A stretch of 64,000 nucleotides of DNA from Brachyspira pilosicoli. Its GTDB lineage: Bacteria > Spirochaetota > Brachyspiria > Brachyspirales > Brachyspiraceae. Every line of letters starts with the position of its first letter. Positions within the stretch are counted from its first letter, which is position 1. The stretch spans positions 186,001 to 250,000 of the forward strand of contig NZ_JAWLPU010000001.1 of NCBI RefSeq assembly GCF_036997485.1, written 5' to 3'. The translations under genes were made by a program, and so were the position numbers. The notes beneath the pieces are model-generated. The model did no database searches. It was not told the origin of the DNA and was given only the letters and a program-made list of their open reading frames with translations. Positions 41,973 to 48,938 of the stretch are shown here, in pieces.

Positions 41973-42371
41973 TTACTTACTGCCTTTTATTGCTCTATAT
42001 TTTGCTAAAAACTCATTTGATACATTTTGCAACTCTTTTGCATATTCAATATTTAAATTAATTGAATTATTAATTATCTCAGTATCTGGATTTTCCTTAA
42101 GCATTTCTAAACGCATTTTTGTTTTTTCTGTATTTATTTTTTGTTTTAATTCAGAAATCTTTGGCTGATATTCAGTTTTTAATTTTGTTATTTCAGCTAA
42201 TTGCTCTTTAGTGAGAGAAGCAGAATTATAAATAAAATATCCATAATTATAAACTTCTCCATCATCATAACAATAATAATTATTAGCTTTGTTATAAGAA
42301 GAATAATTCTTAGCAAAAGCTGGTACTGATAAAATTGATACGATAAAAATAATGCTTAAAAACTGTTTCAT
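41973..42371 (-). CDS. Spy/CpxP-like periplasmic protein
   Basis: 132 residues from ATG 42371; the ATG at 42383 overlaps the GGAG ribosome binding site and is rejected. MKQFLSIIFIVSILSVPAFA is a signal peptide with an AxA site. The mature part is helical, with SLTKEQLAEITKLKTEY close to the LTxxQ motif and a following long Lys/Glu helix. This resembles Spy, CpxP or ZraP-type periplasmic chaperone or metal-stress proteins. Confidence 0.6.
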   Translation of the reverse strand: MKQFLSIIFIVSILSVPAFAKNYSSYNKANNYYCYDDGEVYNYGYFIYNSASLTKEQLAEITKLKTEYQPKISELKQKINTEKTKMRLEMLKENPDTEIINNSINLNIEYAKELQNVSNEFLAKYRAIKGSK

Positions 42372-42448
42372 ATTTATCTCCATAAATATTATTTATATAT
42401 TATTAGACGAGCTATTAAATATAAAAGTTCCCTAAAAAACAAATATTA

Positions 42449-43486
42449 TTAAGAGTTTAAAAAGTTTTTTATATATTTTGTCTGCTCATCATTTTTAAGC
42501 AAAAAAGCATCATGACCATAGTTTGATTTTAATTCATGAAACTCAGTATCAATATTAAGTTCTCTATAAGCTTTTACTATATCCTCAGACTGATAACTCG
42601 GATAAAGCCAGTCTGATACAAATGATATTACAAGGACTTTATCTATAGAATGCTTCTTTATTTTTTTTATATTATCTCTCACATCAAATAAATCCATAGC
42701 CTTGGTAAGATACAAAAAACTATTAGCATCAAATCTCTCACTAAATTTTTCACCATTGTAATGCAAATAATTTTCCACTTCAAAAGAAGGAGTAAAATAT
42801 TTTATAGCCTTTTTTCTTCTTCTTCCAAATTTTTTTCTCATATACTCTTCGCTCATGTACGTGATATGCCCAAGCATTCTAGCCAAAGCAAGTCCATTAT
42901 CTGGAGTGGATATGCCGTAATATTTGCCTCCATACCATTCTGAATCTTCTGTTATAGCCTGTCTTGATATTTCATTAAAAGCTATTTGCATAGGTGAATG
43001 AGTCATACAGCTTGCTATAATTATTAATTTGTTCATCATGTTTGGGTATGATGCACTCCACTGCAAAACCTGCATTCCTCCCATAGAGCCGCCTACAACT
43101 GCATAAAGCTTATTTATTTTCAAATAATCTATTAATAATTTTTGAGCCTTTACAATGTCTTTCATAGTAAAACTTGGAAAATCTGTGCCATAGCATAGAT
43201 GACTATTAGGTTTCTTTGATGAAGGACCAGTTGTTCCATAGCAGCCTCCAAGCACATTTGAACATATTACAAAATATTTATCTGTGTCTATAGCTTTTTT
43301 CTTGCCAACAAAATTGCTCCACCAAGTGAGAACATCACTGTCTCCTGTAAAAGCATGGCAAATTAATACGGCATTATCTTTTTTATCATTTAATTTACCA
43401 TTTGTAGTGTATGCTATTTTTAAATTATCTATAGCAGCAGAGTTTTCAAATTTAAAAGTTTTATTATAATCAAAATACTCTATCAT
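42449..43486 (-). CDS. metX: Homoserine O-acetyltransferase
   Basis: 345 residues, alpha/beta hydrolase fold. Motifs: CHAFTGDSDV, SNVLGGCYGTTGPSS, the nucleophile elbow VVGGSMGGMQVLQW, and late acid and base residues in VSDWLYPS and GHDAFLL. It acetylates homoserine, the first committed step to methionine by the sulfhydrylation route. AGGAT precedes the ATG. It lies downstream of metY, separated by 252 bases that contain a repeat copy. Some family members act on serine or use succinyl-CoA. Confidence 0.9.
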   Translation of the reverse strand: MIEYFDYNKTFKFENSAAIDNLKIAYTTNGKLNDKKDNAVLICHAFTGDSDVLTWWSNFVGKKKAIDTDKYFVICSNVLGGCYGTTGPSSKKPNSHLCYGTDFPSFTMKDIVKAQKLLIDYLKINKLYAVVGGSMGGMQVLQWSASYPNMMNKLIIIASCMTHSPMQIAFNEISRQAITEDSEWYGGKYYGISTPDNGLALARMLGHITYMSEEYMRKKFGRRRKKAIKYFTPSFEVENYLHYNGEKFSERFDANSFLYLTKAMDLFDVRDNIKKIKKHSIDKVLVISFVSDWLYPSYQSEDIVKAYRELNIDTEFHELKSNYGHDAFLLKNDEQTKYIKNFLNS

Positions 43487-43738: not shown

Positions 43739-45037
43739 TCATTTACTCGCTATAGTTAAAGCCTCATCAAGATAATATAATATATCATCTATATGCTCTA
43801 TTCCTATAGAAAGTCTTATAAAGTTTTTAGTAATACCTGCATTTATTAACTCTTCCTCAGACAATTGAGAATGCGTTGTAGAAGCAGGATGTGCCACCAA
43901 ACTCTTAACATCTCCCACATTAACAAGATGAGAAAATAATTTTATATTGTCTATAAACTTAACAGCAGCATCATATCCGCCCTTTATGCCAAATACAACC
44001 ATACCCCCAAATTTATCATCTTTCAAATATTTTTTAGCTATATTATAAGAAGCATCATTTTTAAGCCCAGGATACCTCACCCACTCAACCCTATCATCTT
44101 TTTCTAAAAACTCAGCAACCTTCATAGCATTAAATGAATGCCTATCCATTCTCAAAGGTAAAGACTCCATTCCCTGAATAAATACCCAAGAATTATCAGG
44201 CGACAAACAAGCTCCCAAATTTCTTAAAGGCACAGTTCTAAATCTCATAGTAAAAGCAATATCTCTTAACTCATCAGGTAAATCATAAGCCCATTTTAAA
44301 CCATGATAATTAGCATCAGGCTGAGTAAACAAAGTAAACTTATCATCTTTCCAATTAAACTTACCCGCATCTGTAACAGCCCCTCCAACACTGCTTCCAT
44401 GGCCGCCAATCCATTTAGTAAGAGAATTAATTACTATATCAGCACCATGATTTATAGTTTGAAGCAAATAAGGTGTTGTAAAAGTACCGTCTACTATTAA
44501 TGGTATATTGTTGCTATGTGCTATTTTTGCTACTTCTTCTATATCTGTAAAATCTAATGAAGGGTTTGATATTGTTTCTATATATATTGCCTTTGTATTT
44601 TTAGTAATTGCCTTTTCAAAGTTTTTTGGGTCTTTTGCATCAACAAAGTTTGTATTAATACCAAATTTTGGAAGTATTGCAGCAAACTGTGAATATGTGC
44701 CTCCATACAAACTAAAAGATGATAATATCTCATCGCCTGCCTCGCATATAGTAATCATAGTATTAAATATAGCACTTGTTCCAGAAGACACCGCTATAGA
44801 AGATTTACCGTTTTCCATTGCTGTAATTCTTTTTTCTAATATATCTGTAGTAGGGTCACCTAATCTTGTGTAAATATAGCCTAACTCTTTTAAATCAAAT
44901 AAATCAGCAGCATGCTTAGAGTTTTTAAACATATAAGATGTTGTTTTATATATAGGTACACCTCTGCTTCCAAATACATCATTATTTTCTTGTCCTGCAT
45001 GAACAGATAAAGTCTCAAATTTTAATTGCCTTGACAT
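43739..45037 (-). CDS. metY: O-acetylhomoserine sulfhydrylase (aminocarboxypropyltransferase)
   Basis: 432 residues from ATG 45037, which follows AGGAG by 8 bases; an upstream in-frame ATG at 45082 lies between the leader terminator and this site and is not used. The PLP-fold type I enzyme shows ETLSVHAGQ, the PLP-lysine in NSLTKWIGGHGSSVGG, YTRLGDPTTD and SIGIEHIDDILYYL near the C-terminus. It makes homocysteine from O-acetylhomoserine and sulfide. Its transcript starts with a Met-rich leader peptide and terminator, described separately. Confidence 0.92.
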   Translation of the reverse strand: MSRQLKFETLSVHAGQENNDVFGSRGVPIYKTTSYMFKNSKHAADLFDLKELGYIYTRLGDPTTDILEKRITAMENGKSSIAVSSGTSAIFNTMITICEAGDEILSSFSLYGGTYSQFAAILPKFGINTNFVDAKDPKNFEKAITKNTKAIYIETISNPSLDFTDIEEVAKIAHSNNIPLIVDGTFTTPYLLQTINHGADIVINSLTKWIGGHGSSVGGAVTDAGKFNWKDDKFTLFTQPDANYHGLKWAYDLPDELRDIAFTMRFRTVPLRNLGACLSPDNSWVFIQGMESLPLRMDRHSFNAMKVAEFLEKDDRVEWVRYPGLKNDASYNIAKKYLKDDKFGGMVVFGIKGGYDAAVKFIDNIKLFSHLVNVGDVKSLVAHPASTTHSQLSEEELINAGITKNFIRLSIGIEHIDDILYYLDEALTIASK

Positions 45038-45062: not shown

Positions 45063-45096
45063 AAAAATAAAAAAGCCGCCAAAAAATTTGACGGCT
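45063..45096 (-). terminator. Leader terminator of metY (attenuator)
   Basis: On the minus strand GCCGTCAAA and TTTGGCGGC (45075-45095) form a 9 bp stem (one G-U) with a 3 nt loop, followed by TTTTTTATTTTT. It sits 26 bases upstream of the metY start and downstream of the leader ORF, so it can end transcription before metY. Confidence 0.88.
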
Positions 45097-45129
45097 GAAT
45101 TTAAAAAATTAATATTATTATGCAGCCGT
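45091..45129 (-). promoter_or_regulatory. Predicted antiterminator stem in the metY leader
   Basis: ACGGCTG (minus strand, 45123-45129, in the last leader codons) is exactly complementary to CAGCCGT (45091-45097), the 5' arm of the terminator. Pairing would block the terminator. ATGCAG near the leader start (45174-45179) can instead pair with CTGCAT (45120-45125), freeing the terminator arm. Confidence 0.75.
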
Positions 45130-45186
45130 AACTATTTTTTGCATTTGCATGAGGCAAAGCATGTTCATAATAACTGCATTATTCAT
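45118..45186 (-). CDS. Methionine-rich leader peptide of metY
   Basis: A 22-codon ORF from ATG 45186 to TAA 45118-45120. Met is at codons 1, 7, 9, 13 and 15 and Cys at 11; the core reads MNMLCLMQMQ. AAGGA lies 14 bases before the start, somewhat far. The ORF is within a leader transcript of about 160 bases and ends on the antiterminator sequence. Ribosomes short of Met-tRNA would pause at codons 13-15 and leave that sequence free. This is the logic of trp, his and leu leaders. It is not long enough to be a normal gene, and no homologue is claimed. Confidence 0.75.
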   Translation of the reverse strand: MNNAVIMNMLCLMQMQKIVTAA

Positions 45187-45228
45187 AAATATTTTACAAT
45201 TCCTTAAAATTTTATATTTTAATAATAT

Positions 45229-45257
45229 GTTATATATAAAAAATATACTATTGTCAA
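45229..45257 (-). promoter_or_regulatory. Promoter of the metY leader
   Basis: On the minus strand TTGACA (45252-45257) and TATAAC (45229-45234) are 17 bases apart. Transcription would start near 45222, about 36 bases before the leader peptide. Confidence 0.75.
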
Positions 45258-45508: not shown

Positions 45509-46708
45509 ATGCTCAAATATAAAATTATTTCACTGCTATTTTTATTAACATTATTCAGTTCTAATTTATATAGTGTAAAAGTAACTGTGCTTCCATTTCT
45601 AAGTAAAGAAAAAAAATGGGTAGATGAATATATGGTTGATGATGGTATGCCAAGAGCTTTTGAAATATCTCTCAAAAATACGCACATGTTTGATGTAAGT
45701 GATTATGATTTACTTATATCATATTTTGAATCTTATGATAATGTTGTAAAATATAAAACATTATCTACAAATATCACTGTAGCAGGCAATTTCGTTAAAG
45801 AGACTTTCGAATCTGATTATTTAATTACAGGAGAAGTTCTTGACTTTAATTTAAAACAAGGCGGAAAAGATACAGCTAATGTAGAGTTTAAAGTTAATCT
45901 TATAGATATAAATACTTTAGAAATCTTAAATACTTTCACAAATTCTGCAAGCTATGTGCTTCCTGGAAACAGTGCTGTATATAACTCTGAAGATGCTTTA
46001 TTTTATGAAAGTGCATTAGGCTGGGCTAGCATTTTAGCTTTTAATAATATAGCTAATGATATAGCAGCATTTTTGAAAATCCCTCCTTTAATTGGTAGTA
46101 TTACAAGGATAGAAGATAATAAAATATTTATAAATTTAGGAAAAAGAAATAATATAAAAATAGGAGATGAGTTTGAAATATACAGTTTAGAACGCTATTT
46201 AGATTTGCCTCCTAATAACGATTATCTTATCAATAAAATTAACGAAAGAAAACAAAGTTCTTTGACTAATGGAATATTAACAAATAATATAGACCCTAAT
46301 AATTTTGTTGTTCATAATAATACAAATTTTTATATTACAAATAATTATATTACTAATAATTCTATCAGTAATGCCAATCAAGAAATTACTAATAATACAC
46401 AAACTAATAATCAAAATGCTAATAATCAAAAAAGTAATATATCAAAACAATATAAAAATAATATAATAAATAATAATTATCCTTCTGCCTATCAGCAAAC
46501 TAGAGAAAATGCTCAAGGAGATTTCTGGTATACAAGCGAGATGCTTTACATATATAGATTTTATAAAACTAAAAAAACATTAGTTACAAAAGCAAAGGTA
46601 GTAGAATTATATGACAATTATGCCATATTAGAAAATAAAAGCGATGCAAAAGTTAATATACTTATGGAAGTAAGAATTAATAATGAAAAAGAGGATAAAA
46701 ACTTATGA
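45509..46708 (+). CDS. Exported protein with CsgG-like and FlgT C-terminal-like regions
   Basis: 399 residues. MLKYKIISLLFLLTLFSSNLYS is a signal peptide. Residues 22-180 resemble CsgG-type or LpoB-type periplasmic domains (VTVLPFLSKEKKW..., DYLITGEVLDFNL). Residues about 190-225 have IGSITRIEDNKIFINLGKRN and KIGDEFEIY, like the FlgT C-terminal beta domain. An Asn-rich linker follows (about 255-325). Overlaps the next gene by 4 bases (ATGA). Its role in the envelope is unclear. Confidence 0.55.
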   Translation: MLKYKIISLLFLLTLFSSNLYSVKVTVLPFLSKEKKWVDEYMVDDGMPRAFEISLKNTHMFDVSDYDLLISYFESYDNVVKYKTLSTNITVAGNFVKETFESDYLITGEVLDFNLKQGGKDTANVEFKVNLIDINTLEILNTFTNSASYVLPGNSAVYNSEDALFYESALGWASILAFNNIANDIAAFLKIPPLIGSITRIEDNKIFINLGKRNNIKIGDEFEIYSLERYLDLPPNNDYLINKINERKQSSLTNGILTNNIDPNNFVVHNNTNFYITNNYITNNSISNANQEITNNTQTNNQNANNQKSNISKQYKNNIINNNYPSAYQQTRENAQGDFWYTSEMLYIYRFYKTKKTLVTKAKVVELYDNYAILENKSDAKVNILMEVRINNEKEDKNL

Positions 46709-47688: not shown

Positions 47689-47773
47689 TTGTAAATATAT
47701 ATTTTTTTATTATATTTATAAGGTGGTATATGATTCTTGTTTAAAAAATAATTTATTTAATAGGAGTTTCAAT

Positions 47774-48298
47774 TTGTATAAAATATTACTTTTAACGATA
47801 TCTATTATATTTGCAGCTTGCAATGAAAAAGAAATGAAAAATATAATAGCACAAACAAATAATATTGCATCAAATAATAATGTTGCTGATGATAAACCTA
47901 ATATAAAAGTATCAACATCAAAATTAACATCAAAAGAATATGAAGTGTTAATAAACAAAGGTACAGAGTTTCCATTTACAGGGGATCTTTTAGATGTAAA
48001 ATCTGATGGAGTATACACTTGTAAATTATGCGGTAATTTACTATTTAAATCTGATGCTAAATTTAATTCTGGTACAGGATGGCCTAGTTTTGATGATGCA
48101 GTTGCAGAAAACATAAAATTAGTAAAAGACGGATGCAGAATAGAAGTGACTTGTGCAAAATGCGGAGGTCATTTAGGACATGTATTTTACAATGAAGGCT
48201 TTACTGATAAACAAACAAGATATTGTATTAATTCTGTATCTTTAAATTTTGTTAATAAAGCAGAATTTGAAGAAACTAATGATAATACAAACAAATAA
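47774..48298 (+). CDS. msrB: Peptide methionine-R-sulfoxide reductase, lipoprotein form
   Basis: 174 residues from TTG 47774, 7 bases after TAGGAG (47761-47766). An upstream ATG at 47723 would add a hydrophilic stretch with no ribosome site. From the TTG the protein starts MYKILLLTISIIFAAC, a lipobox, so it is exported and lipidated. The MsrB domain has zinc pairs CKLC and CAKC, GTGWPSF and the catalytic Cys in RYCINSVSL. It repairs Met-R-sulfoxide in envelope proteins. msrA follows. Confidence 0.85.
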   Translation: MYKILLLTISIIFAACNEKEMKNIIAQTNNIASNNNVADDKPNIKVSTSKLTSKEYEVLINKGTEFPFTGDLLDVKSDGVYTCKLCGNLLFKSDAKFNSGTGWPSFDDAVAENIKLVKDGCRIEVTCAKCGGHLGHVFYNEGFTDKQTRYCINSVSLNFVNKAEFEETNDNTNK

Positions 48299-48314
48299 CG
48301 AGGTAAAACTATAT

Positions 48315-48938
48315 ATGAAAAAAATTGTATTAATGACAATAATTTCCATATTTTCTTTAATATCCTGTAATGAAAAATTAAATAGCGAATCTTCAAATAT
48401 TAAAGAATCTTCAAGTATTAAAGAAAATAAGGAGGAGATAAATATGATTCCAGAAAATGTTAAATATGCTTATTTTTCTTCCGGCTGTTTTTGGGGAACT
48501 GAATATTGGTTTGAAAAGGGAAAAGGAGTGTATGCTGTTGTAAGCGGATATGCAGGCGGGCATAAAATAAACCCAACATATCAAGAAGTTTGTACAGGTC
48601 TTACAGGTCATTTAGAAACTGTACAGGTTGCTTATAACCCTGATGAAACTACTTATGAAGATTTAGTTAAACTATTCTTTGAAACTCATGACTTTACTCA
48701 AAAAAATGGTCAAGGTCCTGATATAGGTTCACAATATTTATCAGCTATTTTTTATCAAACAGAAGAAGAAAAAGAAATAGCTCAAAAATACATAAATATG
48801 CTTAAAGAAAAAGATTATGATGTGGCAACAACTTTAAGAGAATATAAAAACTTTTATCCAGCAGAAGATTATCATCAAGATTATTATGAGAGAAAAGGCT
48901 CTATACCTTATTGCCATTTCTATAACAAAATATTTTAA
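48315..48938 (+). CDS. msrA: Peptide methionine-S-sulfoxide reductase, lipoprotein form
   Basis: 207 residues from ATG 48315, preceded by GAGG at 48300-48303; the longer frame from 48249 overlaps msrB and is rejected. MKKIVLMTIISIFSLISC is a lipoprotein signal (LISC). The MsrA domain starts near residue 47 with the catalytic Cys in SGCFWGTEYWF, then SGYAGGHKINPTY and a conserved late YHQDYYERKG. With MsrB it repairs both sulfoxide forms in the envelope. Co-transcription with msrB is likely. Confidence 0.9.
   Translation: MKKIVLMTIISIFSLISCNEKLNSESSNIKESSSIKENKEEINMIPENVKYAYFSSGCFWGTEYWFEKGKGVYAVVSGYAGGHKINPTYQEVCTGLTGHLETVQVAYNPDETTYEDLVKLFFETHDFTQKNGQGPDIGSQYLSAIFYQTEEEKEIAQKYINMLKEKDYDVATTLREYKNFYPAEDYHQDYYERKGSIPYCHFYNKIF

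Follow-up and report, generated by a model that had tools for sequence, protein, structure and literature searches.

The metY gene of Brachyspira pilosicoli is preceded by a short open reading frame (ORF) rich in methionine codons and by an intrinsic terminator, and this locus raises the question of whether the two act together as a transcription attenuator responding to methionine. Attenuation by a leader peptide is an established mechanism for several amino acids. Methionine is the one amino acid for which this type of control seems to defeat itself, because no leader can be translated without charged initiator Met-tRNA. The DNA analysed here, referred to as the window, is a stretch of 64,000 nucleotides of contig NZ_JAWLPU010000001.1. 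An earlier note on this DNA had proposed a ribosome-mediated, methionine-sensing attenuator upstream of metY, and the sequence comparisons reported below support that interpretation. The comparison set consisted of 26 Brachyspira genomes, to which 270 genomes sampled from the rest of the phylum were added.

Organization of the leader region

All the elements of the leader are located on the minus strand and are listed in Table 1. The promoter described in the earlier note (TTGACA-N17-TATAAC), the 22-codon ORF with its five ATG codons and single TGC codon, and the complementarity of ACGGCTG to CAGCCGT were all recovered at the expected coordinates when the minus strand was reread and the ORF translated. 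The Met codons of the ORF occupy positions 1, 7, 9, 13 and 15 and the Cys codon position 11. The strong terminator stem followed by a U tract was found as well, with 10 pairs at 45096-45074 and then the T run according to the terminator scan, instead of the 9 pairs claimed. It is the stronger of the two terminator-like sites detected in a scan of 4 kb.

The minimum free energy (MFE) structure of the leader accommodates the 1:2 helix, the inner hairpin and the terminator together, and the fold outperforms 199 of 200 dinucleotide shuffles (z = -2.86). The probability of encountering at least four internal Met codons in 21 codons is about 0.0008 at the local base composition. The conservation observed across genomes appears more decisive than either of these two figures.

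Table 1. Features of the metY leader and of the genes downstream in the Brachyspira pilosicoli window
Feature	Position	Strand	Basis and remarks
-35 hexamer TTGACA, metY leader promoter	45252..45257	-	Sequence; same site in 22/22 metY leaders
-10 hexamer TATAAC, 17-nt spacer	45229..45234	-	Sequence; mostly TATAAT in relatives
Candidate Shine-Dalgarno AAGGA of the leader ORF	45201..45205	-	Sequence; 14 nt from ATG, which is long
Leader peptide ORF MNNAVIMNMLCLMQMQKIVTAA, then stop	45118..45186	-	22 codons; frame and Met codons conserved
Segment 1, ATGCAG (45179-45174) and the TTATTAT after it	45167..45179	-	MFE; predicted to pair with segment 2
Internal (putative regulatory) Met codons	45168-45166, 45162-45160, 45150-45148, 45144-45142	-	Translation
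Cys codon of the leader ORF	45156-45154	-	Translation
Inner hairpin TTTGC-CTCAT-GCAAA	45144..45158	-	Spans codons Cys-Leu-Met-Gln-Met
Segment 2, ACGGCTG, antiterminator 5' arm	45123..45129	-	Last codons of the leader ORF; GGCTG invariant
CTGCAT, partner of ATGCAG	45125-45120	-	Sequence
Segment 3, CAGCCGT	45091..45097	-	Common to antiterminator and terminator; AGCCGTC invariant in all intact leaders
Intrinsic terminator, stem AGCCGTCAAA-TTT-TTTGGCGGCT and T tract	45069..45096	-	Scan; MFE
metY, O-acetylhomoserine sulfhydrylase	43739..45037	-	TIGR01326, 600.5 bits (cut-off 495.1)
metX, homoserine O-acetyltransferase	42449..43486	-	NF001209, 432.3 bits (cut-off 331)

The metX gene is presumed to be the second gene of a metY operon; the same leader lies directly before metX in two relatives. 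No same-strand gene of at least 60 amino acids was found closely upstream of the leader that the terminator could serve, and the upstream neighbour (45509-46708) is divergently oriented. The search of Rfam 15 at gathering thresholds returned no SAM riboswitch or T-box in the window or in the related loci, the sole match in the window being a distant tRNA; the absence of these elements, asserted in the earlier note, is thereby borne out.

A number of other features were observed in the neighbourhood. A small secreted-looking protein is encoded 3' of metX (41973-42383, minus strand) and matches the zinc resistance sensor ZraP weakly (E 3e-05, far under the cut-off). Tandem repeats of 15 and 11 bases at 46317-46475 give rise to an Asn-rich stretch in a plus-strand ORF. 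An adjacent pair of plus-strand ORFs at 47723-48938, close to the met operon, encodes what we take, by motif, to be the methionine sulfoxide reductases MsrB and MsrA. Elsewhere in the same genome, metH lacks such a leader; the MetH match (C4:52901-56307) is split over two open frames (L191 and L192), the long one corresponding to model positions 2-870 and the second to 880-1181.

Conservation across Brachyspira

Of the 26 Brachyspira genomes, 22 contain a full-length orthologue of metY (82-99% identity), the nearest MetY relatives (98%) being labelled B. pilosicoli. The leader is found 5' of metY with all its parts in order in every one of the 22: a TTGA(C/A)A promoter, an ORF of 21-27 codons, GGCTG at the ORF end and a terminator of conserved sequence, AGCCGTC...G(G/A)CGGCT-T6. 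Between clades, the leaders are 62-81% identical, compared to 33-49% for the 300 nt 5' of the promoter, a value that we take to be about the level produced by gapped alignment of AT-rich DNA. The start codon (ATG, TTG or GTG, each with its own AGGA upstream), the frame and the Met codons survive insertions and deletions of 3 and 6 bases; AGGA is found 5' of nearly all leaders and has been lost in G011, and in the B. pilosicoli group the candidate Shine-Dalgarno lies at a long distance from the ATG. The number of internal Met codons ranges from two to six in all 27 intact leaders, the fewest among metY leaders being two (G012 and G016). Within metY leaders, the changes in the codons for CLMQ are all synonymous (TGC/TGT, CTC/CTT).

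A one-base deletion in three metY leaders, those of G002, G018 and G020, shifts the C-terminal frame, so that NNDGC becomes IMMAV; segment 2 as RNA and the site of the stop codon are unaffected. Conservation is thus seen at the RNA level for the end of the ORF and at the codon level for Met.

The earlier note had placed the leader upstream of metY. This holds in the 22 genomes, and a covariance model built from their metY leaders (E < 1e-4 in the genus) disclosed six more Brachyspira sites: two before metX, three before metN-metI and one decayed. In G001 and G003, the leader directly precedes metX, and the only full-length metY is divergent and located elsewhere. In G002, G018 and G020, it precedes genes for a MetN-like ATPase (best NCBIfam match ABC_MetN, 399 bits, under the strict cut-off of 499.7) and a permease whose best match is MetI. 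The decayed copy adjoins metY and metX genes broken by stop codons in G017 (L062, L034 and L179), and both its GGCTG antiterminator segment and its terminator are gone. In G019, no full-length metY, metX match or leader match was detected. The metN genes of the other 23 Brachyspira genomes are devoid of such a leader.

The metN-metI loci of G002, G020 and G018 (L063, L064 and L065) apparently possess two tandem promoters, the attenuated one upstream and, 3' of the terminator, one resembling the plain metN promoter of other species. Since the leader and its own promoter sit 5' of the metN-type promoter, the arrangement suggests that the attenuator cassette was gained before metN-metI in that clade.

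Outside the genus, no Met-rich leader was observed upstream of metY in G027, G028, G029, a Spirochaetia MAG or two Goldiibacteriota MAGs. A DNA match at a second place in the B. pilosicoli genome itself (L002) was discarded as AT-rich sequence that matches by chance and lacks a leader. An unrelated second Met-rich leader ORF, ending in SMMMRV(V/C)AR before the stop, was noticed before the divergent metY of G001 (L027, minus strand) and G003 (L028), whose product is 44-45% identical to that of the window. A short hairpin covers the end of this ORF, no evident intrinsic terminator follows downstream, and the DNA motif is confined to 2 of the 296 phylum genomes.

RNA helices

The two competing helices were examined in 21 leaders, controls being obtained by displacing the helix columns by 1-3 columns. 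The antiterminator (2:3) helix contains 93.5% standard pairs (13-62% in the slid controls) and the terminator (3:4) helix 98.1% (31-61%). Covariation is weak: most pairs of both helices are invariant, so that conservation alone does not prove pairing. The invariance of segment 3 may reflect the two partners that it has to fit. A genus-wide alignment had been suggested in the earlier note as a check, and it does recover the terminator, the two competing helices and the Met codons, the last in varying number. The compensatory changes also anticipated there are scarce, since the key segments do not vary.

The register of the 1:2 helix differs by clade. The pairing of ATGCAG with CTGCAT singled out in the earlier note agrees with the sites and with the MFE structure but is limited to the B. 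pilosicoli group, most other species displaying CATCGTTAT/ATAATGATG instead, with one pair altered on both sides in five sequences. The 1:2 helix is weak or doubtful in G012, in G016 and in the metN leader of G018.

The computed mean energies of the antiterminator and of the terminator are -14.1 and -14.2 kcal/mol, respectively. With values this close, the winner is likely to be set by which helix forms first. In G000, the equilibrium energies favour the terminator (-13.3 kcal/mol) over the antiterminator (-8.7 kcal/mol), which would have to win by earlier formation.

Codon spacing and the probable signal

Each of the 27 intact leaders has a Met codon 12, 13, 15 or 17 nt upstream of segment 2, and its stop codon follows the beginning of that segment by 9-15 nt. 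The footprint of a ribosome reaches about 12-14 nt 3' of the first base of the A-site codon. From this spacing, segment 2 is expected to be accessible when the ribosome awaits Met-tRNA and to be covered once the ribosome has reached the stop codon. Internal Met accounts for 17.6% of the codons in 22 distinct leaders, versus 2.7% Met in MetY and MetX.

Cysteine was a serious rival as the amino acid sensed, alone or jointly with methionine, because a Cys codon is present at the CLM core of every metY leader (three in some of them) and homocysteine synthesis is fed by sulfide and cysteine. The metX leaders of G001 and G003 are informative in this respect: they read ...SMMQMRF(E/T)DGC.., with three Met codons and no Cys before segment 2, which favours Met over Cys as the signal. 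The Cys codons are moreover found at variable distances from segment 2, as opposed to the Met codon that is always present 12-17 nt before it, and the targets, a homoserine acetyltransferase, a homocysteine synthase and a methionine importer, are none of them cysteine-specific. Sensing of cysteine is accordingly considered improbable.

The peptide itself could also be the active element, with free methionine or SAM, and not tRNA limitation, causing the sequence (M)CLMQM to arrest the ribosome. The identity of CLMQM in 21 of the 22 metY leaders, with synonymous changes only, would agree with such a role. The core nevertheless differs in CLMQK of G016, in SMMQM before metX and in (N/K)SMQMTM before metN, two Met around a Gln being all that the cores have in common, and GCAAA is also required for the inner hairpin. 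A stall at that place caused by surplus methionine would furthermore open the operon when it is unneeded. Peptide arrest is regarded as very unlikely.

A terminator controlled by a protein or by an unknown riboswitch, the ORF being incidental, would account for RNA segments conserved as well as the codons, and the 1:2 helix combined with the inner hairpin may resemble an aptamer-like fold. It would not account for the persistence of the start codon, frame and Met codons through the 3- and 6-base indels, with three different start codons each served by its own AGGA. The sequence of the 1:2 helix also differs between clades, unlike a ligand pocket, and Rfam contains no match for the leader. We give this explanation hardly any credit.

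A chance layout, in a genome where hairpins and short ORFs arise easily in AT-rich intergenic DNA and scans return many promoter-like sites, has practically no probability, as it is refuted by the preservation of the leader in 22 genomes and by its recurrence upstream of three types of methionine gene, and as a second covariance model found no convincing copy in the 270 other phylum genomes, the two marginal matches (G194 and G065) being plain terminators without a leader.

Proposed mechanism

The metY-metX leader is thus very probably an attenuator of transcription in which a translating ribosome gauges the supply of charged elongator Met-tRNA, and its operation can be pictured as follows. 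Transcription would start at about 45222, and the Met-rich ORF would be translated while RNA polymerase produces the leader. When Met-tRNA is scarce, the ribosome is expected to stall while a Met codon occupies the A site, at codons 13-15 at the latest. The stalled ribosome would block the 1:2 helix, keeping segment 2 free to pair with segment 3 before segment 4 is made; no terminator would then form and metY-metX would be transcribed. When methionine is plentiful, the ribosome would proceed to the stop codon and cover segment 2, the 3:4 terminator would form and transcription would end near 45069. If the leader is not translated at all, the 1:2 helix should form and lead to termination too. 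Termination without initiation at the leader, or superattenuation, has been described for other operons (PMC1183508).

As translation of the leader needs initiator Met-tRNA, the switch should fail under complete methionine starvation and work under moderate limitation, unless the initiator tRNA stays charged longer. The same synthetase charges initiator fMet-tRNA and elongator Met-tRNA, and the two shortages must be separated for the device to be useful; the leader would then report how far the two charged pools diverge. That Brachyspira runs a methionine regulon, covering synthesis and in one clade import, on attenuation of this kind is a tentative proposal that we consider possible but doubtful. 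To our knowledge, a difference between the initiator and elongator charged Met-tRNA pools is the signal of no known attenuator.

Comparison with known systems

The trp, his, leu, thr and phe attenuators of Proteobacteria share with the Brachyspira leader a small ORF with many codons for the amino acid produced, three mutually exclusive helices, an intrinsic terminator and the spacing of codons and stop to segment 2. The Brachyspira counterparts of these traits are an ORF between promoter and gene whose start codon and frame are conserved in 27 leaders; Met control codons matching the targets metY, metX and metN-metI; an intrinsic terminator between ORF and gene; an antiterminator that excludes it; and a 1:2 helix, predicted in nearly all leaders, that would sequester the antiterminator segment of a ribosome-free leader. 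The differences are the methionine codons, the phylum (Spirochaetota) and the lack of any sequence relation; the Rfam families, including Trp_leader, His_leader, Leu_leader and Thr_leader, gave no match to the leader. SAM riboswitches (S-box, SAM-II) and Met T-boxes serve the same pathway, often via an intrinsic terminator as well, but bind SAM or tRNA directly; no match to their covariance models was obtained.

A methionine leader peptide has been proposed, though untested, for metL of Streptomyces lividans, 5' of metNIQ (PMC8079986). It likewise contains Met and precedes a methionine importer, but it is described in a single species, is leaderless, has no clear terminator and consists of an unrelated peptide, MSTTSDRTPATEATTTPGARCMCRRMCAF (PMC8079986). 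The leader peptides of cys operons in Mycobacterium and relatives also carry codons for a sulfur amino acid, in the form of Cys codon runs near the stop, with no intrinsic terminator found (PMC1262725). The same survey of Actinobacteria reported no methionine leader-peptide attenuator (PMC1262725), and the main text of a broad survey of premature terminators mentions neither Brachyspira nor spirochaetes (PMC2965389). In the literature searched, from which subscription papers were mostly absent, the S. lividans proposal is the only methionine attenuator that was found, and none was found in Brachyspira. Within those bounds, the novelty lies in methionine as the amino acid of an attenuator, predicted once before in Streptomyces without a terminator, and in the phylum.

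Biological significance

One genome paper, on B. hyodysenteriae, reported no methionine biosynthesis pathway (PMC2650404). The present analysis predicts a methionine regulon in these intestinal spirochaetes and would add the Spirochaetota to the phyla in which classical attenuators occur. A conserved attenuator of methionine genes would also make it testable whether, and over what range, the charging of initiator and elongator Met-tRNA separates in the cell.
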